Shown: positions 26,800 to 40,722 of the stretch, piece by piece
Layout of the letters: every line of letters begins with the position of its first letter
Position numbering within the stretch: position 1 is the first letter of the stretch
Assembly (NCBI GenBank): GCA_017645925.1
Contig: JAGCNN010000115.1
Span: 1 to 41,598, forward strand
DNA from: Bacteroidales bacterium
GTDB lineage: Bacteria; Bacteroidota; Bacteroidia; Bacteroidales; ML635J-15
DNA length: 41,598 nucleotides
Direction: 5' to 3'
Notes under the pieces: generated by a model
Seen by the model: only the letters and a program-made list of their open reading frames with translations
The model's database searches: none
Told to the model about the DNA's origin: nothing
Position numbers and translations under genes: made by a program

Positions 26800-26839
26800 G
26801 TTTCTATGTTTCTGGGTTTCTATGTTTCTGGGTTTCTAG
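26800..26839. repeat. Five tandem 8-bp units GTTTCTNN
   Basis: GTTTCTAT, GTTTCTGG, GTTTCTAT, GTTTCTGG, GTTTCTAG with exact 8-base period. On the minus strand it encodes the last residues of the MutS-like protein (ETQKHRNPET) and supplies its stop codon. The same unit recurs at 28997-29080 and, more weakly, at about 2106-2122 and 28260-28270. Confidence 0.85.
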
Positions 26840-28252
26840 TTGTTGAGACGCAAGGTCTTGCGTCTTAACAATGACCATTTTTCGTGCTTCGCTAAGGAAT
26901 TCCTCGTCAATATTAAAGATTTCCGCTATTGTAAGACCTTCGGTCGGGACTTCCTCCTCGGTGGTGCTTACAAGCGAATAATCCATGTATCGGTTGATAT
27001 TTTCGGGTGTTACCTTTATGCCGTCCGGAACTTGCAGTCCTTTTACCCTCAGACGGTTACATTGCGCTGTTATGCCGTTGTAGTGGGTTGTGATGAGACT
27101 GCGAGTGGAATGCCGCGAAAGAATCTTTATGAAAGCGTTGACCAATGCACGGCCTTCGCTTGGGTTGGTGGTGCGGGCAAGCTCATCTACTAGGGCAAGA
27201 ATCTTCTGTCCCGACTTAACCGCCTTGAGAATCTTGTCGATGTTGAGCATTTCGATTGCAAACGATGATAGTCCATTCACTTCCGACTGGGCATCGCCAA
27301 TGCTAGTCATTATTTCCTCTACAGGTGCAATTTCCGCACTTTCGGCAGGAACAAAGAATCCAAACTGAAACATCATCTGTATTAGCGACATGGTTTTCAG
27401 TACCACGGTTTTGCCCGACATGTTGGCACCGGTGATTAGGTTTGGCGTTTCTCCAAAATGTATGTCTATCGGCTGGAATTCTCCGCCTCGTTCCTTTAGC
27501 GATTCGGCAACAACCGGATTGAAAGCACCTTTGATGATTGTTTCGCCTTGCGATATAGTCGGCTTGCACAACTTGAAGTCGCGGGCGAGCAGTGCCTTTG
27601 CCAAAAGCAGGTCTAGGTAGGCGAGTTGGTCGTAGTTGGCTTGGATGGCTTCGCTGTAGTTGCGCAATTTCTCGGACAGATGTTCGCGGATGCGGTCTTC
27701 GATTTCAATGCATTCAAGACGTATGCGTTCTGCCTTTTCGTTCTGATTTGCGTTCTTGGCAATGTCGTATTCCTTGCGGAGAGCTGCTAGCTTTTCATCG
27801 TAAACCGAATAGATGTAGAAACTCTGTATTCCATTGTGCTCTGGGTCAAGGATTTCAACTACGGGGTTTAGGTCGTGGAACGGCAGAATATCAATCTGGG
27901 TATCTTTTATCAATTTGCAGATGTCGCGCGATACCATGCAGAAATTTTTCACCTCGAAAAGTTCAATGTCATCGAGTGTCTGTGCCGAACGTAGGTTGTG
28001 TATTGTCTGGTGGATGTCGTTTTGGCAGTACAGACGATGCTGAATTGCGACTATGCTCTTGGCGTTTTCACGGTCGCTGACGAAGTTCGCAAAAATTTCA
28101 AGGGTATCAAGTTCCATTTTCAGTTCGAAGTCGCTTGTGATGAAATGCTGCGATAGCAGTCGCTTGCGACCGGTAGCCGAGCAGATTTCCAATTTCTCGT
28201 ATATGAAACGGAGTCCGCGGTTTTCGTTGATATGATGTTTAAAGGTTTGCAT
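26804..28252 (-). CDS. MutS-family ATPase, 482 aa
   Basis: The C-terminal half is the MutS ATPase: Walker A GANMSGKT (about 275-282), the STIGDAQS-like switch (TSIGDAQSEVNGLSSF), Walker B ALVDELARTTNPSEGRAL (about 350-366) and the THYNG histidine. The N-terminal half is a helical core/clamp-like region. It lacks the mismatch-recognition domain with Phe-x-Glu and the connector of MutS1, and at 482 residues it is far shorter than MutS1 or MutS2. It also lacks a Smr domain. MutS-like ATPases of this size also occur in amino-acid fermentation loci, but no such genes are near. The C-terminal residues are encoded by the 8-bp tandem repeat, so the natural end may vary between strains. Role in DNA repair is unproven. 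Confidence 0.85.
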   Translation of the reverse strand: MQTFKHHINENRGLRFIYEKLEICSATGRKRLLSQHFITSDFELKMELDTLEIFANFVSDRENAKSIVAIQHRLYCQNDIHQTIHNLRSAQTLDDIELFEVKNFCMVSRDICKLIKDTQIDILPFHDLNPVVEILDPEHNGIQSFYIYSVYDEKLAALRKEYDIAKNANQNEKAERIRLECIEIEDRIREHLSEKLRNYSEAIQANYDQLAYLDLLLAKALLARDFKLCKPTISQGETIIKGAFNPVVAESLKERGGEFQPIDIHFGETPNLITGANMSGKTVVLKTMSLIQMMFQFGFFVPAESAEIAPVEEIMTSIGDAQSEVNGLSSFAIEMLNIDKILKAVKSGQKILALVDELARTTNPSEGRALVNAFIKILSRHSTRSLITTHYNGITAQCNRLRVKGLQVPDGIKVTPENINRYMDYSLVSTTEEEVPTEGLTIAEIFNIDEEFLSEARKMVIVKTQDLASQQLETQKHRNPET

Positions 28253-28538: not shown

Positions 28539-28988
28539 TTATTCATTATCTGAAGCATACCATTCTGCAAACGAAGTTGACGTTTCGTATAGCCGCAAAC
28601 TGAAAAGCTCTGTACCATCGGGCAGAAGCGGTTTGATAAGTTCGGCAAAATGTGCCACTATATTTTCGGCTGTAGGCTGAAAATCAACTACGTGTATGCG
28701 CTTGAAAATTGCCTTGTTGCTTTCGATAAAACTGGTATCCTCGCTGCTGCTTACGATTAAACTGTGGTCAAACTTGTCGATGAGATTCTCCTTGATTTTG
28801 TTCTTCAATACGCCGAAGTCCACCACCATTCCGTATTTTGGTGATGCAATGTCGGTTATTGGTTCTCCAATGACTGTAACATGGAGCTTGTATGTGTGTC
28901 CGTGTATGTTGCTGCAAAGCCCGTCGTAGTTGTGTAGGGTGTGCGCAGTGTCGAATTCAAATATTTTTGTTACTCTGATTTTGGGCAT
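28539..28988 (-). CDS. queD: 6-pyruvoyl-tetrahydropterin synthase/QueD family, 149 aa
   Basis: QueD makes 6-carboxy-tetrahydropterin, the second step toward preQ0 and queuosine. The zinc ligands H16, H29 and H31 (FDTAH and IHGH) are present, with the catalytic Cys at 25 in LCSNIHGHTY, MVVDFGVLK, the DH pair at 74-75 and Glu in LYETSTSFAEWY. A PTPS used for biopterin would look similar, but the CxxxHGH form is that of QueD. The start at 28988 gives MPKIRVTKIFEFDTAH. A full promoter lies at 29083-29112, and the 8-bp repeats fill most of the leader between them. No queC, queE or queF is in the window. Confidence 0.9.
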   Translation of the reverse strand: MPKIRVTKIFEFDTAHTLHNYDGLCSNIHGHTYKLHVTVIGEPITDIASPKYGMVVDFGVLKNKIKENLIDKFDHSLIVSSSEDTSFIESNKAIFKRIHVVDFQPTAENIVAHFAELIKPLLPDGTELFSLRLYETSTSFAEWYASDNE

Positions 28989-32945: not shown

Positions 32946-32982
32946 CAAGGCAATAATTGAAAAAATTTTGTAAATTTGCGAT
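32916..32982 (+). repeat. 67-bp direct repeat, copy 1
   Basis: It matches 33534-33600 at 63 of 67 positions. It contains the last codons and stop of the RsmI-like gene and the -7 element TAAATTTG (32971-32978) used by the toxin-antitoxin pair. Confidence 0.9.
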
Positions 32983-33004
32983 AAATAAACTAGGAGGAAA
33001 AAAT

Positions 33005-33187
33005 ATGGCAACTTATACTATTACCATTGACGAAAGAACGACAAGGGGCAAATACATAATGACTGTACTAGCCGCCCTTGGTCTTATTAAGAAAAAAAAT
33101 GACCCAAACGTTGAACGTCAACGGGAAAGGGAAGCGTTCTTGTACACATCAAAGATAAATGCTGCAAAAATGATGAATGAAGCATGA
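33005..33187 (+). CDS. Antitoxin of a MazF-type module, 60 aa
   Basis: A 60-residue protein, MATYTITIDERTTRGKYI..., with a beta-strand N-terminus typical of small Bacteroidetes antitoxin-like proteins, then a basic helix (KKKNDPNVERQRERE) and a helical C-terminus. Pairing and size make it the antitoxin of the next gene. The ATG at 33005 follows the strong ribosome site AGGAGG (32992-32997), so the longer frame from 32957 is rejected. It overlaps the toxin start by 4 bases (ATGA). Confidence 0.72.
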   Translation: MATYTITIDERTTRGKYIMTVLAALGLIKKKNDPNVERQREREAFLYTSKINAAKMMNEA

Positions 33188-33516
33188 GGTACACGCAACG
33201 AGACATAGTGGAAATAAACTTTCTATTTCCAGACGGCACATTTAAGCCACATCCGGCTGTTATTGTGTCAAATGATGAATTACAATATAATGAAGGCTAT
33301 ATTTATCTTTGCCTAATATCTTCCAAAGACTATAACAATCAATACTATTACCAACTTTCCGATGAGATGCTTACAAAACCGTTATCAAAGACAAGCTATG
33401 CAAAATGTCATATTATAGTTGGCAATGTTGAGAGAGATGTAATTCGCAAAATTAGTCGAATAAAAGAACCATACTTTGGAGAATTAGTTGAAAAAATAAA
33501 AGAAAGCATATTCTGA
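33184..33516 (+). CDS. MazF/PemK-type endoribonuclease toxin, 110 aa
   Basis: The MazF/PemK fold is indicated by DIVEINFLFPDGTFKPHPAVIVSND (about 8-32), where the R-P-x-VV segment has become HPAVIVS, followed by YLCLISSKDYNN and the conserved late strand TSYAKCHIIVGNVERDVI. MazF toxins cut mRNA at short sequences. It overlaps the antitoxin stop by 4 bases and would be coexpressed. The pair lies exactly between the two 67-bp repeats. Confidence 0.82.
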   Translation: MRYTQRDIVEINFLFPDGTFKPHPAVIVSNDELQYNEGYIYLCLISSKDYNNQYYYQLSDEMLTKPLSKTSYAKCHIIVGNVERDVIRKISRIKEPYFGELVEKIKESIF

Positions 33517-33600: not shown

Positions 33601-33897
33601 ATGAACATTATTGACTCGAACATTGACAGCATTTCTGCATTGTGTCGTTCCCACAATGTAAATAGCTTTTTTGTATTTGGTTCGGTTCTTACCGATAGAT
33701 TCAATAGCGACAGCGATGTTGATATGCTTGTATCCTTTAAAGACATTTCTGCATACGATTATGCTGACAATTATTTGAATCTTAAAGAAAGTTTGTCGCT
33801 TCTGTTGTGCAGGGAAATCGACCTTATTGAGGATGCAGGAATACATAATGCAGTATTGCGCAGAAATATTGACAACACAAAAAAGCAGATTTTCTGA
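33601..33897 (+). CDS. MNT-type minimal nucleotidyltransferase, orphan antitoxin-like, 98 aa
   Basis: The motif GSVLTDRFNSDSDVDMLVSF (about 27-46) is the GSxxxG-x-DxD nucleotidyltransferase signature, and the final REIDLIEDAGIHNAVLRRNI matches MNT-domain proteins. In HEPN/MNT (MntA) modules this enzyme AMPylates and silences a HEPN RNase toxin. No HEPN gene is next to it, so the partner is lost or elsewhere. The ATG immediately follows the -7 element, and no other Met precedes the catalytic motif, so the mRNA may be leaderless. Confidence 0.82.
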   Translation: MNIIDSNIDSISALCRSHNVNSFFVFGSVLTDRFNSDSDVDMLVSFKDISAYDYADNYLNLKESLSLLLCREIDLIEDAGIHNAVLRRNIDNTKKQIF

Positions 33898-33914: not shown

Positions 33915-35069
33915 ATGAACCGTTACATAAAAATAGGACTCCTTCTCATCTTTGCCGTGGCTATCTGCCTGACATCGGGCAAGGTGTTCAACATTGAGAT
34001 AGGAACAAAATCGGCAGAAAAGATAACAGAGCTTGGCGACTCAACAGCCTGCTTTGCCGAAATTGTTGAAAATTTCTCGTACTACGAATACACAGCCGAC
34101 AACGACTGCTACCTGCTTTACGACAAGTCGGAAAAACTGGTAGGCAAAGCACTTTTCTCGATGCCATACTGCGCCGACATAAAGGGTTACAACGGAAATA
34201 TTCCGCTCGTAATACTGCTTTCGCCAGATGGCAAAGTGCTGAAAATCCATTTGCTTGACAATAACGAAACCCCCTCTTTCATCGACCGCGTAGTGGCAAA
34301 AGGATTCCTTGAAAGTTGGAATGGCTTGCCAGCCGACGAGGCAAAAGCGAAGCAAGTGGATGCAGTTACAGGCGCAACCTATTCAAGTTCAGCAATTTCA
34401 AAATCCGTAAGAATTCGCCTTGAAAATTACTCCGGCATTGGCGCAACCTCTTCAGAATCGGAAGGCATGGACAACCTCGCTGGCTTCATTGCTTCGATGG
34501 TATTCCTGCTATTCGCAGGTTTCTGCTTCTGGGAGCCGCAACGCACAAGAAAATTCCGCATAGTATTGTTGCTTGCATCAATTGGAATACTGGGATTCTG
34601 GCTCGGACAATTTATCAGCATTGCAAAATTGTCGGCATGGTTGCTTTCGGGCGTGAACTGGCAGATGGAAATTTTCCTGTTCATTGTGCTTGTGGCAGGA
34701 ATTATGGCTCCGCTTTTCCTCGGCAAGCAGTTCTACTGCATGTATGTATGTCCGTTTGGCGCATGCCAGGAACTTGTCGGCAAAATAAACCCCAAGCACA
34801 AGCTGAAGATTTCGCCCAAGGTTGTAAAGGTTTTGCGTTATGCCCGTTATGTTCTGCTTGTAGTGCTTGGCGCATTGCTCTGCACTTCGCTCGACATCAG
34901 CATCGAGAACTTTGAACCGTTCTCGGCATTCAAGTTCCAGTTCGCCTCGCTGGCAGTGCTGATACTGGCAGGCGTGATGCTTGTGCTTTCGATATTCATA
35001 AACCGTCCGTGGTGTACTTTCCTTTGCCCTACCGGCGCATTTTTCTCGCTTTTTATGAAAAAATCCTAA
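33915..35069 (+). CDS. FMN-binding, iron-sulfur membrane protein (NosR/RnfG-like FMN domain), 384 aa
   Basis: N-terminal membrane anchor, then a periplasmic FMN-binding domain (about 40-160) with the flavin-attachment motif DAVTGATYSS (about 149-158), which carries a covalently bound FMN in RnfG, NqrC and NosR. About four further membrane helices follow, and the C-terminal part has two Cys motifs, YCMYVCPFGACQEL and WCTFLCPTGAFF, of the NapH/NosR iron-sulfur type, but fewer Cys than two full 4Fe-4S clusters need. It is likely an electron-transfer protein of the membrane; the partner is unknown. It starts 17 bases after the MNT gene but is probably part of the core genome. Confidence 0.85.
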   Translation: MNRYIKIGLLLIFAVAICLTSGKVFNIEIGTKSAEKITELGDSTACFAEIVENFSYYEYTADNDCYLLYDKSEKLVGKALFSMPYCADIKGYNGNIPLVILLSPDGKVLKIHLLDNNETPSFIDRVVAKGFLESWNGLPADEAKAKQVDAVTGATYSSSAISKSVRIRLENYSGIGATSSESEGMDNLAGFIASMVFLLFAGFCFWEPQRTRKFRIVLLLASIGILGFWLGQFISIAKLSAWLLSGVNWQMEIFLFIVLVAGIMAPLFLGKQFYCMYVCPFGACQELVGKINPKHKLKISPKVVKVLRYARYVLLVVLGALLCTSLDISIENFEPFSAFKFQFASLAVLILAGVMLVLSIFINRPWCTFLCPTGAFFSLFMKKS

Positions 35070-35145
35070 TCGATTTTTTCTAATACAAGAAAGATAATCT
35101 CGCTAACTATTCTAGTAACTCAAAAATGTAGTTGCAATTTATCGT

Positions 35146-35157
35146 ATACTATAGTAT
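35146..35157. promoter_or_regulatory. Palindromic C-box-like operator 1
   Basis: ATACTATAGTAT is a perfect 12-bp palindrome ending one base before the TTG of the predicted promoter, the position expected for an activating controller-protein site. Confidence 0.6.
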
Positions 35158-35158
35158 G

Positions 35159-35189
35159 TTGATATGTAAAAAACTTTTTAAGATTTTTG
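35159..35189 (+). promoter_or_regulatory. Promoter of the controller gene
   Basis: TTG (35159-35161), 20 bases, GATTTTTG (35182-35189), one mismatch from TAnnTTTG. The start would lie near 35196. Confidence 0.55.
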
Positions 35190-35202
35190 CATCAATGAAT
35201 AT

Positions 35203-35215
35203 ATACATATAGTAT
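35203..35215. promoter_or_regulatory. C-box-like operator 2
   Basis: ATACATATAGTAT shares the ATAC and GTAT arms of operator 1 with one extra base. It lies just before the start codon at 35220, where binding would block the gene, giving the usual low-affinity repressor site. Confidence 0.5.
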
Positions 35216-35219
35216 TAGT

Positions 35220-35432
35220 ATGTCAAGTAACATATCAGAACTTATAGCCAATAACATAAGGAAATTAAGATTAGCGCGGCATCTATCACAAGAAAAACTT
35301 GCAGCAGAAGCGGGTTTGCATAGGACCTATATTGGGATGATTGAACGTTGTGAAAAAAATGTAACTGTTGTGTGTTTAGAACGCATTGCTCGTGCATTAA
35401 ATGTTGATATAATCGATTTGATTCATGAATGA
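35220..35432 (+). CDS. Restriction-modification controller (XRE-family C protein), 70 aa
   Basis: A small helix-turn-helix protein: IRKLRLARHLSQEKLAAEAGLHRTYIGMIERCEKNVTV is the XRE fold with the typical recognition helix region of C proteins (AGLHRTYIGMIERGxRN). C proteins delay expression of the restriction enzyme by binding C-boxes; two palindromic candidates are upstream. It overlaps the 138-aa gene by 8 bases, so the operon begins here. Confidence 0.9.
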   Translation: MSSNISELIANNIRKLRLARHLSQEKLAAEAGLHRTYIGMIERCEKNVTVVCLERIARALNVDIIDLIHE

Positions 35433-35841
35433 CTTTGAAAATATAGAGTGCCAAGTACTCTCTAAAAAATACAAATTACATATTGAAGATGCTAATTTTG
35501 CTAGAGGATTTATTCCTCAAAAAGTATTACTTGATAGCACTCGCAATATTCACTCATATTTTGTTTTTTGCAAATATGAGGACGGTATCTTTGAAAGTGA
35601 ATATTGGAATAAGGACTCTTTTTCTATGGCGCTTAGATCAATGATTGCATTACAGTATTCCGATCTGGACAGGCCTTTATTTTTTGTCTTCCAAGATTCA
35701 GAAAACAAGTACAAAATCATAGAGGGGAATGAGTTAAGGGAGGCATTTCTTGAAAATCCTGAGATTAATATCATCAATTATATCAAAGAAAACTCATACT
35801 ACTTATTAGATGTTATAATAAAAATAAAAAAAGAATTGTAA
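35425..35841 (+). CDS. Hypothetical protein of the restriction-modification island, 138 aa
   Basis: I do not recognise this protein. It is acidic, has no membrane segment or signal peptide, and alternates strands and helices (SYFVFCKYEDGIFESEYWNKD, then SDLDRPLFFVFQDSENKYKIIEG). It overlaps the controller gene by 8 bases and ends 3 bases before the transglycosylase-like gene, so it belongs to the operon. It may be an accessory subunit of the nuclease or of the transglycosylase-like protein. Confidence 0.6.
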   Translation: MNDFENIECQVLSKKYKLHIEDANFARGFIPQKVLLDSTRNIHSYFVFCKYEDGIFESEYWNKDSFSMALRSMIALQYSDLDRPLFFVFQDSENKYKIIEGNELREAFLENPEINIINYIKENSYYLLDVIIKIKKEL

Positions 35842-35844
35842 AAG

Positions 35845-36963
35845 ATGGATTTCTATTTTGTTTATAGCTCTGGTGGCGGAGCTGGAGATTGGAATGGCGT
35901 TGACAGAATGTTTAAACATTACATGCCTGATTATTTAAAGGATCATATATTAATTAAATTTGGTGATATATTTTTTAATCATAGAAGCCAAAATTCTATA
36001 ATTAAGCCAAGATTATGGAGAGAAATAAATAATGCCAGAAAATGGATTGTTGATAACACTAATGATTCGATGCTGTATAAGACGCCAAATTTGATTATGG
36101 ATGTCGGAACTACAAAGATAGTAAGTTATCTTACAGCAAATAATCAAGCAAAGAGCGTGAAAGAATTGGTAGACGGATTTGATAATATACTATTTAAAGA
36201 GTCTGTACTAGAGAAATATTGCAATTTAATAACAGAATCACAAATAAAATATGCAGTAACATTTGATATCCCGAACCTGTTTAAAGTAAGATCTCAAATT
36301 GGTGATATCTCACGCAATGTTTACTCCGGAACATCAAATTTGTTGATTGACGCATCTGCAAGATATGCAAATGAAATATTTAATGGTGTAAAAAATGAAA
36401 GTCTACTTTTAACAACAATTAATGGTTCATGGTCTATAAATGACATAGAGAAATTTATGTCAAAGTTGAAATATTCTCCATCGAAACTGGGTATTGGCGG
36501 TTTATCTGATTTGAGAAATCCAAATGAATTTTCATTATTAATAAAAAACCTTGATAAACACTTAGATTTCAGTAAATTTGAAAGGGTTCACTTTTTGGGA
36601 TGCGGAGGTTTAAAGAAAGCAAACGCGATCAAGGAAGCTATAGGTAATCAACATAATTTCTCCGTTGATAATACCACACCATATAACAGATCAATAGATG
36701 GTAATAAAAAAGGGACAGAACAATCATGTTATTATGATTACGCCACAAAAGAAAAGATTCGGATTTCTTCTGACACCAAACAAAGGATACTTTCATTACA
36801 TAAGGCATCTGAAAGTGTTTCTTGTTTTGACACAAAAGAAATGACGAAAATAATAGATTCCATTATTTTGCATCAATCGCATCAAAGTAGTCAAGAAACA
36901 TATGATGCGAGAGGGAAATTGATTATACATAATTTCGATGTGTTCAGATATAATGCAGAATAA
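35845..36963 (+). CDS. tRNA-guanine-transglycosylase-like (DpdA-like) protein in an RM operon, 372 aa
   Basis: The order of motifs in the second half matches the TGT barrel: FDIPN (D141) where TGT has its guanine-binding Asp, TTINGSW (190-196) in place of IVQGG, LGIGGLSD (215-222) like the AVGGLAVGE loop, HFLGCGG (249-255) like LMGVGT, and SVDNTTPYNRSIDG (273-286) with D275 in the position of the TGT nucleophile (FDCVxPTRxxRNG). The TGT zinc CxCxxC motif is absent. The N-terminal third begins with a Gly-rich SSGGGAGDWNG. DpdA-type proteins of this family insert preQ0 or related deazaguanines into DNA. Placement between a controller gene and a nuclease gene suggests a DNA-base function here. 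Assignment is by motif order only; I have not aligned it to a database. Confidence 0.6.
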   Translation: MDFYFVYSSGGGAGDWNGVDRMFKHYMPDYLKDHILIKFGDIFFNHRSQNSIIKPRLWREINNARKWIVDNTNDSMLYKTPNLIMDVGTTKIVSYLTANNQAKSVKELVDGFDNILFKESVLEKYCNLITESQIKYAVTFDIPNLFKVRSQIGDISRNVYSGTSNLLIDASARYANEIFNGVKNESLLLTTINGSWSINDIEKFMSKLKYSPSKLGIGGLSDLRNPNEFSLLIKNLDKHLDFSKFERVHFLGCGGLKKANAIKEAIGNQHNFSVDNTTPYNRSIDGNKKGTEQSCYYDYATKEKIRISSDTKQRILSLHKASESVSCFDTKEMTKIIDSIILHQSHQSSQETYDARGKLIIHNFDVFRYNAE

Positions 36964-37008
36964 TTTAGAAGAGATGCTGCATAGTATTATTATACAAAAT
37001 GTAACAAT

Positions 37009-37800
37009 ATGATTGAAAAAGATATAGCTTTATATAAAGAATTAGTGTCGTTTTGCAACAAACATGCGCATGAGATAGAAGAAAAATTTGAACGCAAATT
37101 AGATTTTTCATCTTTTCATGAAGAGTGCTATGAGAAGATTTTTTATGCAAATCGACATACAAAAACACCTCCTGCCGTCAAGGAACTCAAAGAAATAATT
37201 CCAGAGTTGAAAGATGCATATAAAAGTGCCGCTGATTATTATCTAAACCCTCGAAACAAATATCGAAAAGGATTAGATATTCAGTTAGGTCAATGGTATG
37301 AAAAAGCTCTCAAACTTTTTTTCTTAACAGAAGGTCTTTGTATAAACAAGAAAGGGTATCCTTATCCAGATTTAGAAATCACCAATAAGGATGGTAATGT
37401 GCTCGCATATTTCGAATTAAAATACATAGAAGCTCCTTTCTGGAGAGCAAACAACCAAATCAAAAACACTTATCCATATATTTCCACAAGATATGATTAT
37501 GAAGCATCTTTAACACTGGATACTGGAGAAAAAATGCAAAGGCAAAGGGAAAAAATGAAAGAGCTTGAAGATAAAGGTTTCCCTGTACATTTCCTTTGGT
37601 GGTTTGATTGCTTCCATGTCAAAGGCATCTTTGCGATGTCATCACATGATGTTTATGATTTTTATGATCATGTAGGTGATCAGCATGATAGAAAACTCCG
37701 TTGCGGAGACTTGGATGACCATCAAGAAACAGGGAAAATATACCCACCATTACTAGAAATGATAACCTTTGCTGAATATCTTGATCAATTTGGCGTATAA
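37009..37800 (+). CDS. Predicted PD-(D/E)XK restriction endonuclease, 263 aa
   Basis: A PD-(D/E)XK site is visible at P120-D121 with E136-L-K138 (YPYPDLEITNKDGN then YFELKY). No signal peptide or membrane helix. The N-terminal half is helical and charged. It lies 45 bases after the transglycosylase-like gene and 84 bases before the methyltransferases, which have their own promoter, so nuclease and methyltransferases can be expressed at different times, as controller-protein systems require. With two methyltransferases beside it, the site it recognises is probably asymmetric (type IIS-like). The cut site is unknown. Confidence 0.75.
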   Translation: MIEKDIALYKELVSFCNKHAHEIEEKFERKLDFSSFHEECYEKIFYANRHTKTPPAVKELKEIIPELKDAYKSAADYYLNPRNKYRKGLDIQLGQWYEKALKLFFLTEGLCINKKGYPYPDLEITNKDGNVLAYFELKYIEAPFWRANNQIKNTYPYISTRYDYEASLTLDTGEKMQRQREKMKELEDKGFPVHFLWWFDCFHVKGIFAMSSHDVYDFYDHVGDQHDRKLRCGDLDDHQETGKIYPPLLEMITFAEYLDQFGV

Positions 37801-37845
37801 TGTTAAATATTCTTTATCCGCTATATTTGATTTAAATAAATTATG

Positions 37846-37853
37846 TATTTTTG
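37846..37853 (+). promoter_or_regulatory. -7 element of the methyltransferase pair
   Basis: TATTTTTG, a perfect TAnnTTTG, 31 bases before the ATG at 37885, with TTTG at 37826-37829 16 bases upstream. A separate promoter for the methyltransferases is plausible. Confidence 0.5.
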
Positions 37854-37884
37854 CACACCATAATATGCAATAATTAATTCAGTC

Positions 37885-38664
37885 ATGAATAAGATTTTTA
37901 ATCATAGTTGCGAAAACATGAGAGAGATTCCTGATAAATCAGTATCACTCATGGTTACATCTCCACCATACAACATTGACATTCATTATGGACACAAATG
38001 GGAAAAAGGAAAACAAATTGAATCAAAAGGAGTAAAATATGCTGATAATTTCGAAGAGGATGAATATAGGAATATGCTTGCTAAAGTCATTGGCGAGACA
38101 AAAAGAGTGCTGAAAGATGATGGGCAAATATGGTTCAATATAAAAAATAGGTACAATAAAGGTATTATCATACCGCCTTTTTGGATTTTAGACTTTTTCC
38201 AAGACATGTTCTTAAAAAACATTGTTATATGGAATTTTGATTGGGGTGGTTCTACCAACAAGCGATTTTGTTCTCGATACGAATATGTTTTTTTCTTCAC
38301 AAAGCATAGGGATAATTACACTTTCAATTTAGATGATGTTAAGATTCCAGCATTAAATTATCGTCCAGATAGATATAAAAGTCAAATGAAGAATCCAACT
38401 GATGTTTGGAGAATATCAATGGTAAGTGGCAATTCGCCAGAAAGAACAGAACATCCAGCCCAATATCCGGAAGAATTAATCGAAAGAATTATTAAGGTCG
38501 GCACAAATCCTGGTGATTTAGTTCTTGATCCATTTATGGGAAGCGGTACAACTGCTGTTGTAGCAAAAAAACTTGGACGACAATATGTAGGATATGAACT
38601 GGAACAGGAATATATTAAAATTGCAGAAAAAAGATTGACAGATGACGAACCAAAAATATTTTAG
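37885..38664 (+). CDS. DNA methyltransferase M1 (TSPPY type), 259 aa
   Basis: Beta-class order of motifs: motif IV TSPPY (25-29) near the N-terminus and motif I DPFMGSGTT (215-223) near the C-terminus. TSPPY is usual for N4-cytosine methyltransferases and also occurs in some N6-adenine enzymes. It protects host DNA from the linked nuclease. A 3-residue-conserved DNA-facing segment, NPTDVWRIS, is typical of this class. It overlaps M2 by 23 bases. Confidence 0.93.
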   Translation: MNKIFNHSCENMREIPDKSVSLMVTSPPYNIDIHYGHKWEKGKQIESKGVKYADNFEEDEYRNMLAKVIGETKRVLKDDGQIWFNIKNRYNKGIIIPPFWILDFFQDMFLKNIVIWNFDWGGSTNKRFCSRYEYVFFFTKHRDNYTFNLDDVKIPALNYRPDRYKSQMKNPTDVWRISMVSGNSPERTEHPAQYPEELIERIIKVGTNPGDLVLDPFMGSGTTAVVAKKLGRQYVGYELEQEYIKIAEKRLTDDEPKIF

Positions 38665-39496
38665 TGAAACTCAACCTAATGTTTTTCAGGTAAGGAATAG
38701 TTTTTTTTCTATATCCGATTGCGTGGAGACCATGATGAATATGCCAGAAGGCATTGTAAATACTATTGTCACATCTCCACCATATAATTTGGATAAATCT
38801 TATGGCAAATACGACGATAACCGTAGTTTTCAAGAATGGGAAGATCTAATTGAGAATGTTGCGAGAGAGGCGTATAGAGTACTTGCTCATAATGGCAGTT
38901 TTTTTCTAAATGTTTCTCCTGTACCAGAAAGCAAGACAAAAGAGATTATACCACTTGATGCGATTGCTTATTTCATTTTTAAAAAACAAGGATATTTCCT
39001 AAGAAATAGTATAGTATGGCATTTTAACAATATGCAAAATTGTACTAATAGACTTAGTGGACGATGGGAATCTATACTTTGGTTTGTGAAGGACATAAAA
39101 AATTATAAATTTAATCTTGATGATATTCGCATTCCATATATAACAAAAAATGATAAAAGATTAGAAGGTGGAATCGGGAGAAATCCAACTGATACATGGA
39201 ACTATGATATTCCAGAAAGTGATTTTTGGTATTTTGATCGAGTTAATAATATGACAAAAAATAAGTTGGGAATTTCAGAACATCCATGTGTTTATCCAAC
39301 ACCAATGATTGAGCGCATTATAAAGATGACTACGGATAAAGGGGATGTAGTTTTTGATCCTTTTTTAGGTAGCGGAACAACGCTTGTCGCTGCAGAAAAC
39401 TTAGGTAGAGTAGGTTTAGGAACAGAACTTGATATTAAATATCAAGATATTATAGTAAGAAGAGTAAATAACGAATCGTCACCACTTTTATTTTAA
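38642..39496 (+). CDS. DNA methyltransferase M2 (TSPPY type), 284 aa
   Basis: Same class and plan as M1: TSPPY at 44-48, NPTDTWNYDI in the target segment, and DPFLGSGTT (239-247). It is similar to M1 only in motifs, so each probably methylates one strand of an asymmetric site. It starts inside the M1 gene (23-base overlap) and ends 2 bases before the AI-2E-family gene, so the island ends sharply there. Confidence 0.93.
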   Translation: MTNQKYFSETQPNVFQVRNSFFSISDCVETMMNMPEGIVNTIVTSPPYNLDKSYGKYDDNRSFQEWEDLIENVAREAYRVLAHNGSFFLNVSPVPESKTKEIIPLDAIAYFIFKKQGYFLRNSIVWHFNNMQNCTNRLSGRWESILWFVKDIKNYKFNLDDIRIPYITKNDKRLEGGIGRNPTDTWNYDIPESDFWYFDRVNNMTKNKLGISEHPCVYPTPMIERIIKMTTDKGDVVFDPFLGSGTTLVAAENLGRVGLGTELDIKYQDIIVRRVNNESSPLLF

Positions 39497-39498
39497 TC

Positions 39499-40722
39499 AT
39501 GGAGAAATACCGCAAATATATAATTGGATTTATTGGATTAGCAATACTAATCGCATTTTGCATTTATTTCTCCAACATAGTTTGGTGGCTACTTATTTCG
39601 GCATTCATTGCGGCAATATCAAGTCCAATAGTGAAACTACTCGACAAGATACACTTCGGACGTTTCCAGATGCCACGCTGGGTATCGGCAATGATAACGA
39701 CAATACTAATCTGGGGCGTACTTGTTCTTTTCGTGGCGCTTACCATTCCGTTCATCGGCTCACAGGTAAAACAATTTCAAAACATTGACGTTGAGAGTCT
39801 TCAGACTGGACTTAATCAGCCAATAGAAACGATTGACAAGTTTGTTCAGTCATACCCTATTCTCGGAATGCCAGAATTCTCTACCGAAGATATTATTGTC
39901 GAGAAAATCCAGAACGTCATCAATTTTTCGGCGGCAAGGAATTTCATCGGAAACATTGGCAGCACAGCATTGTCGTTATTTATGGCTTTGTTCTCCATTA
40001 CATTCTTCACCTATTTCTTCCTGAAGGAGACAAAACTTTTCCGCAGCGGCATAATGGTGTTGGTTCCAACACGTTACGAGGACAAGGCCACCCATATCTT
40101 GGACAAGCTGCCAAAACTCATCAAGAATTACCTGCATGGTATTTTCTTCGAGATGCTATCGGTTACAACGTTGATAACCATTGGATTGCTAATATGCGGA
40201 CAAAATTTCGGACTTTCGCTGATGATAGGTATTATATGTGGCTTCCTCAACATAATCCCTTACATCGGTCCGTGGATTGGCGCAGCGATTGGCATTGTTT
40301 TCATAGGAGCAGCAAATGTAAATCTCGACTTCTACACCTACACTATGCCGCAAATTTACGGCTTGCTTATTGTTGTTGTGGTGGTCAGGCTTATTGACGA
40401 CTTTGTTTTCCAGCCGTTCTTCTATTCGCGCAGCGTAAACGCCCATCCGCTCGAGATTTTCATTGTGATAGTTGTAGCAGGAACGCTCTACGGAATCATC
40501 GGTATGATGCTGGCGATACCAGTCTATACGGTGCTTCGTGTGATTGCCAAGGAGTTCCTTTCGGAATACAAGATTGTCCGCACACTGACGCGTGGCATCG
40601 ATGATGAAAAGCCGCAGAAAGCAAAGGAAATTACAAACGGGGCCACACCTCAGAAGCGGCCGAACAGACGGCACTATAGGCGAAGACCGAACAAGCAGGC
40701 AACTGTGGACAAAAAGGAATAG
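39499..40722 (+). CDS. AI-2E family (UPF0118/PerM) transporter, 407 aa
   Basis: Seven or eight membrane helices with the family features: an N-terminal pair, a soluble loop of about 80 residues, and the C-terminal FLNIIPYIGPWIGAAIG, VVVRLIDDFVFQPFFYSRSVNAHPLEIF and GIIGMMLAIPVYTVLRVIAKEF, the PerM signature. Members export small molecules such as autoinducer-2, but in most cases the substrate is unknown. The C-terminal tail is basic (RPNRRHYRRRPNK). The gene GC and codon use match the core genes, unlike the island before it. It starts 2 bases after M2 ends, so it may be read from the island promoter. Confidence 0.9.
   Translation: MEKYRKYIIGFIGLAILIAFCIYFSNIVWWLLISAFIAAISSPIVKLLDKIHFGRFQMPRWVSAMITTILIWGVLVLFVALTIPFIGSQVKQFQNIDVESLQTGLNQPIETIDKFVQSYPILGMPEFSTEDIIVEKIQNVINFSAARNFIGNIGSTALSLFMALFSITFFTYFFLKETKLFRSGIMVLVPTRYEDKATHILDKLPKLIKNYLHGIFFEMLSVTTLITIGLLICGQNFGLSLMIGIICGFLNIIPYIGPWIGAAIGIVFIGAANVNLDFYTYTMPQIYGLLIVVVVVRLIDDFVFQPFFYSRSVNAHPLEIFIVIVVAGTLYGIIGMMLAIPVYTVLRVIAKEFLSEYKIVRTLTRGIDDEKPQKAKEITNGATPQKRPNRRHYRRRPNKQATVDKKE

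Follow-up and report, generated by a model that had tools for sequence, protein, structure and literature searches.

Enzymes of the tRNA-guanine transglycosylase (TGT) type act on tRNA, and those known from DNA biology are deazaguanine inserters, found in phages and in large Dpd islands. In restriction-modification (R-M) systems, controller (C) proteins set the timing of methyltransferase and nuclease. According to papers on R-M control, expression of the methyltransferase must precede that of the nuclease (e.g. PMC3850674). TGT homologs occur within BRC (BREX-related capture) defence systems as well (PMC12839542), and the TGT relative DpdA2 comes from a phage with DNA that contains dPreQ0 (PMC6884629).

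The locus described here is a predicted type II R-M system that includes a new member of the TGT superfamily. It lies in the window, by which we mean the whole stretch of 41,598 nucleotides that was analysed, from a Bacteroidales genome estimated to be 75% complete. With C-protein type II R-M systems the locus shares a controller gene (C), a palindrome in the leader of that gene, a putative nuclease gene (R) and methyltransferase genes, and it differs from them by two extra conserved genes, which we call T and X. The Dpd system contributes a DNA-acting superfamily relative of T, namely DpdA (NF041059, 7UI4), but the operon around T is without DpdB, DpdC and DpdD-K and instead has methyltransferases and a putative PD-(D/E)XK nuclease; no Dpd family was matched by any of the six operon proteins in PADLOC or NCBIfam. 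DpdA2 is a 464 residue protein encoded in a phage preQ0 cluster, whereas T is shorter and is encoded in a C-regulated R-M operon without preQ0 genes. None of the proteins that characterize BRC (PglZ, BrxC-like, HerA/FtsK, GNAT) is encoded in the T operon. No description of such an operon layout was found in the literature searched, and we know of no described base-attacking restriction enzyme of TGT fold. A possible functional analogy is offered by base-excision restriction enzymes of the R.PabI type, which restrict via base removal and have a fold different from that of T. In a review of base-excision restriction the words 'transglycosylase' and 'DpdA' are absent (PMC10273834).

The operon and its counterpart in Myroides

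Six co-directional genes follow one another in the window in the order C-X-T-R-M1-M2. Ahead of them is a putative C-protein operator (C-box, 35146-35164 (+)), a perfect palindrome ATACTATAGTAT (35146-35157) within ATACTATAGTATGTTGATA, which we take as a putative binding site of C. The gene for C (35220-35432 (+)) encodes a 70 residue helix-turn-helix controller protein (PADLOC Control_protein, E 4e-23; Pfam HTH_3, E 1e-12); it is overlapped by the gene for X (35425-35841 (+), 138 aa), which belongs to no known family and has no match in Pfam, PADLOC, NCBIfam or PHROGs. T (35845-36963 (+), 372 aa, ATG start) begins 3 bp past X, and is followed by R (37009-37800 (+), 263 aa), a putative PD-(D/E)XK restriction endonuclease. 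R has a weak HSDR_N match (E 0.056) and reaches the cut-off of no family in Pfam, PADLOC or NCBIfam, with no match in PHROGs either; the PD-(D/E)XK motif is conserved all the same, with PD at 120-121 followed by E136-x-K138, and so is the segment QLGQWYEK when compared with the Myroides R described below. M1 (37885-38664 (+)) and M2 (38642-39496 (+), overlapping M1) are N6/N4 DNA methyltransferases (PF01555, E 4e-60 and 6e-55, respectively), in which SPPY precedes DPFMGSG in M1 and DPFLGSG in M2. The preliminary description had set T amid a controller, a PD-(D/E)XK nuclease and two methyltransferases, and the PADLOC and Pfam matches together with the R motif confirm that setting.

GC content is 31-36% over the operon (window 35000-40000) against 41-48% in most flanking kilobases, and because the operon is so much more AT-rich than its flanks it is likely a horizontally acquired cassette. 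Shortly upstream of the operon, a gene for a PemK/MazF-like toxin, itself preceded by a small ORF (32957-33187), is accompanied by a solitary gene for an MNT-type nucleotidyltransferase; the coordinates reported for this toxin and nucleotidyltransferase group are 33184-33516 and 33601-33897, and it is possibly a small defence or mobile cluster.

A steered scan of ~85,000 genomes returned a single relative of T, in Myroides albus (NZ_WMJX01000044, locus L045), which is 51% identical to the window T over its full length (tblastn with T itself, E 2e-127). The scan ran two patterns and was steered by artificial rows, aligned with T, that kept its motif blocks only; these rows served the choice of search peptides and entered no other analysis. 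All six genes are present at L045: C (77 aa), X (140 aa), R (259 aa) and T (375 aa) overlap in that order, and the T gene starts at the final base of the R gene. M2 and M1 are encoded on the opposite strand, convergent to C-X-R-T and separate from it. Identities between the two systems are highest for the methyltransferases (76% for M1, 74% for M2), followed by C (53% over 58 aa), R (51%) and X (35% over 141 aligned columns). X nevertheless keeps a core in both systems (GFIP..LLD.TRNIHSY and LDRPLF), and may be a partner protein of either R or T. The leaders of the two C genes contain an identical 15-mer, TATAGTATGTTGATA (L045:7540-7554 in Myroides), which in the window overlaps the palindrome ATACTATAGTAT; among 1000 trials with mononucleotide-shuffled leaders the longest common word was 15 in one.

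The order of R and T is swapped between the two copies, so that co-inheritance of the genes goes beyond that of a conserved block of DNA. Membership of T in the R-M system is strongly supported, since its relative in another genus of Bacteroidota sits inside the same six genes; the survey of homologs for shared neighbours, proposed in the preliminary description, yielded this one homolog with all six. The Myroides system adjoins GmrSD-type genes and hence a defence neighbourhood: two tandem GmrSD_N (DUF262) proteins (L045:12137-16421) resemble the two-protein GmrSD-like systems GrwAB/TgvAB, and an ADP-ribosyltransferase-domain protein (PF03496, E 5e-8) is encoded directly upstream of the Myroides C gene (L045:6222-7493 (-)).

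The system that the Bacteroidales and Myroides genomes share is rare. Plain searches with T as query found no homolog in plasmids, phages, or initial scans of genome contigs and viral contigs, nor in 31 genomes of the family, 393 of the order and 395 of the phylum of the window's lineage (overlapping samples), and a T profile found no third system in 378 genomes of the Myroides family or 370 genomes of the class of the window's lineage (the latter overlapping the other samples). Queries with R (plasmids, viral contigs and 376 genomes of the Myroides order) and with M2 (plasmids and viral contigs) likewise turned up no third system, and the contigs retrieved when viral sequences were scanned for DNTTPY[NK] were all unrelated. 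The genome-contig scans relied on few short peptides, and further copies may exist. Two weak partial matches to T (L003, L004) were left out of the homologs, and two others (L048/L049, E about 5e-4, residues 31-146) were rejected as spurious, appearing penicillin-binding-protein-like on reading of their sequences.

Fold, nearest relatives and putative active site of T

Sequence libraries do not recognize T. It has no match in Pfam, NCBIfam, PADLOC or PHROGs and no meaningful sequence match in the PDB; it gives no match to the TGT family PF01702 above the curated cut-off, the sole PF01702 match in the genome being another gene (C166), and none to the DpdA model NF041059 (no NCBIfam family at E 1), which is without a match in the whole window genome. 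A weak Pfam ADDT (amino acid:DNA transferase) match at the C-terminus of the Myroides T (E 0.077) was taken as chance.

The fold of T was approached through an AlphaFold2 model built from the two-sequence alignment (pLDDT 66, pTM 0.65), a model from the single sequence (pLDDT 41, resembling methyltransferases) having been too poor to use. The model consists of alternating beta/alpha units with a helical C-terminus, and pLDDT falls below 50 in residues 1-17, 36-55, 150-161 and 276-292, the last of these being the loop after D275. Foldseek against the PDB by itself returned weak and mixed matches, mostly to other TIM barrels (RPE, endonuclease IV and aldolases at the top, E above 0.001). When the 1000 best Foldseek chains were realigned with VIA-align 2, TGTs filled all 50 of the top rows listed (Z 12.5-13.0), with rmsd of 4.1-4.7 over about 270-290 of the 372 residues and 10-13% identity. 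Model residues 1-372 span residues 40-359 of Z. mobilis TGT (Z about 13), and mammalian QTRT1, the catalytic subunit, is also among the matches (Z 12.6-12.7; 12.7 for the murine protein). The structure comparison called for in the preliminary description has thus been made on a predicted model, whose best alignments are to TGTs.

Among viral structures, the first BFVD match to the model is R9TGF0 from Vibrio phage nt-1 (prob 1.00, E 1.5e-3). Phage proteins annotated as queuine/queuosine tRNA-ribosyltransferases follow at ranks 4, 7 and 9. The length of R9TGF0 (464 aa) equals that of VPFG_00171 (AGN30173), which is encoded in the nt-1 genome between GTP cyclohydrolase I and exsB (QueC), that is, in a preQ0 gene cluster, and on these grounds we identify R9TGF0 as DpdA2. 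A two-sequence T profile scored 28.3 against DpdA2 in hhalign (E 0.007, probability only 5%), a score reached in none of 480 column shuffles (largest 28.04), while X, R, M1 and M2 scored 12-21 in the same comparison. Because the known relatives DpdA2 and DpdA score 19-29 against each other with similarly small profiles, the distance between T and DpdA2 appears to be about that between DpdA2 and DpdA. The T profile rose above shuffles for DpdA2 alone and not for the phage DpdA groups, and the single T sequence did not beat shuffles against phage DpdA profiles. DpdA2, and not classical DpdA, appears to be the nearest known relative of T.

The motifs quoted for T in the preliminary description are all present and in the order given: FDIPN (D141), TTINGSW (190-196), GIGGLSD (216-222), HFLGCGG (249-255) and SVDNTTPYNR (D275). 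An additional, earlier block, NLIMDVGTT (D86), stands at the place of the DSGG/DSGA loop of TGT and DpdA. The block order of T parallels that of both DNA-type relatives across the whole barrel. In nt-1 DpdA2 the blocks are HVDSGG / CFDEIP / IFHGN / HMLGFG / SYDSS, so that D-S-G-G, F-D-E-I-P, HMLGFG and SYDSS correspond to D-V-G-T, F-D-I-P, HFLGCGG and SVDNT in T; phage 9g DpdA has FLDSGAFSA / LDGIGD / CFHAGE / LGGL / VHGFG / SCDSSSW in the same order. With respect to TGT, whose fold T would share, D86, D141 and D275 stand at the places of the three aspartates. In the Z. mobilis enzyme D102 is the acid/base, D156 binds guanine and D280 is the nucleophile; corresponding roles in T are assigned by motif order and not by superposed residues, making D86, D141 and D275 a putative active site. 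TGT has in addition a CxCxxC...H zinc site and PTRNxRNG, where T has no zinc site and TP[YF]NR.IDGN instead. No cysteine is common to the two T copies, and the Myroides protein has none at all, which bears out the earlier claim that T is without the TGT zinc site.

With two known sequences, conservation is weakly tested. D86, D141 and D275 are invariant; NLIMDVGTTKIVS (with D86), AVTFDIPNLFKVR (with D141) and LIKFGDIFFNHRS are each identical at 13 of 13 positions, and FSVDNTTPYNRSIDGN, including D275, is kept at 13 of 16. The pocket loops vary more: LLTTINGSWS is kept at 6 of 10 positions (TTINGSW becoming TTISAEW in Myroides, N193 to S), KLGIGGLSDLR at 6 of 11 (GGL becoming GAL) and VHFLGCGGL at 7 of 9 (HFLGCGG becoming HFLGSGG). 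Of the two features that the preliminary description expected homologs to conserve, D275 stood while the GGL loop did not, being GAL in the sole homolog. Because the copies differ both at the second Gly of that loop and at the residue that aligns with Q203 of TGT, T may bind guanine differently from TGT.

A TGT/DpdA fold for T is well supported by the predicted model, and the TGT/DpdA-like identity first proposed for T holds up, with fold comparison, motif order and profile comparison in agreement. The fold match, the DpdA2 profile score and the joint inheritance of the six genes together exceed what chance would give. That T is both a TGT/DpdA-superfamily protein and part of a C-regulated R-M system is, in our estimation, highly probable.

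Deazaguanine supply and alternative roles

One role put forward for T in the preliminary description was self-marking, in which T, acting like DpdA, would put a 7-deazaguanine in the place of guanine in the host's DNA and so add a second mark beside methylation. In its favour, the closest known relative, DpdA2, comes from a phage with dPreQ0 in its DNA (PMC6884629), T has every one of the three acidic residues used in the TGT mechanism, and the host has QueD and a normal TGT, an ordinary TGT being encoded elsewhere in both genomes. QueD (PTPS, E 9e-31) is confirmed as encoded about 7 kb from T (28539-28988 (-)); a MutS domain V protein is encoded near it (26804-28252 (-)). The remaining supply of preQ0 was sought in the window's genome (75% complete) and in the Myroides genome: neither contains a QueC above the TIGR00364 cut-off, the weak PP-loop matches of ~20-28 bits falling inside larger ORFs and well below the cut-off of 150, and neither has a match to the preQ0 transporter YhhQ (Vut_1). 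A role in preQ0 insertion is weakened because QueC and YhhQ were not detected. This absence is provisional and no more than suggestive, given a window genome at 75% completeness and a transporter search that covered YhhQ, and it would fit an enzyme that excises guanine or exchanges it for some other base, or a protein that only binds; the window PTPS may serve another pathway, since the genome is apparently without QueC. The operon moreover has no DpdB/DpdC-like partner, and protection is already served by two methyltransferases. A protective mark would be expected alongside the methyltransferases, but T in Myroides is in the operon of C and R, apart from them. Self-marking by preQ0-type base exchange is thus not supported, and we consider it unlikely.

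We give no more credence to a non-catalytic T that, with X, would serve R as a subunit or as a specificity or sensor module, its TGT fold flipping and reading guanine or a deazaguanine-marked phage base. In each copy T directly adjoins R, whichever of the two comes first, with a one-base overlap in Myroides; the loops of the pocket differ (GGL to GAL, N193 to S), whereas stretches such as LIKFGDIFFNHRS are invariant; and defence proteins that recognize deazaguanine DNA do exist in the form of GrwAB (PMC12137116). Invariance of all of D86, D141 and D275 nonetheless exceeds the needs of a pure scaffold.

That T acts on tRNA, as ordinary TGTs do, and upon infection modifies or depurinates anticodons as an effector seems to us very unlikely: although tRNA-TGTs, mammalian QTRT1 among them, are its best matches of solved structure, T has no zinc site, the viral proteins nearest to it are DpdA/DpdA2 of the DNA type, its genomic setting is entirely one of DNA restriction, and each genome encodes a normal TGT at another place. 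Least probable of all is a different TIM-barrel enzyme with convergent TGT likeness, as the missing matches to TGT and DpdA sequence models and the Foldseek-only ranking might suggest, but against which stand the TGTs in every top-50 row of the full alignment, the motif order shared with DpdA/DpdA2 across the barrel, and a T-DpdA2 profile score above every shuffle.

A proposed role on the restriction side

The reading we tentatively prefer, with somewhat less than even confidence, is that T is a restriction-side enzyme acting on DNA guanines, by removal or exchange in invading DNA. A restriction-side role is favoured over preQ0 self-marking because of the Myroides operon layout and because no QueC, YhhQ or Dpd partners were seen. 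The controller gene is ahead of R in window and Myroides alike. Judged from layout, T is grouped with R, in Myroides within the C-X-R operon apart from M1 and M2, which points to the restriction side. This conclusion must be tempered by the window arrangement, where T runs in the same direction as the methyltransferase genes and could share a transcript with them.

Under this proposal T would be a divergent TGT/DpdA member, nearest to phage DpdA2, that has become fixed in a C-regulated type II R-M system. M1 and M2 would methylate the target sites of the host, while C would delay and boost the operon of C, X and R/T; it is this control by C that would place T on the restriction side with the nuclease. 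T would bind DNA and seat the target guanine in a TGT-type pocket (D141, GIGG/GCGG loops), the nucleophile D275 would displace the guanine with D86 as acid/base, and the resulting abasic or exchanged site, together with cleavage by R, would inactivate unmethylated invading DNA. What the analysis shows is the system and its conservation, along with the predicted fold of T and its invariant acidic residues; DNA as the substrate of T, its catalysis, its timing and its cooperation with R we infer. The complete scheme is possible but rather doubtful: on the restriction side of a type II R-M system, beside an ordinary nuclease, a TGT-fold enzyme would form a covalent Asp intermediate and thereby take out or replace guanines of invading DNA that is unmethylated.

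A small C-regulated system with a TGT-fold protein of its own would mean that TGT chemistry was recruited into ordinary type II R-M, perhaps for attack rather than for marking, and the locus suggests a defence system that attacks or alters DNA guanines besides cutting and methylating. At six genes, the whole system is of a size that makes it testable in a laboratory strain. T adds to the TGT superfamily a family that current sequence libraries miss, and because they miss it, more such genes may hide in defence loci.
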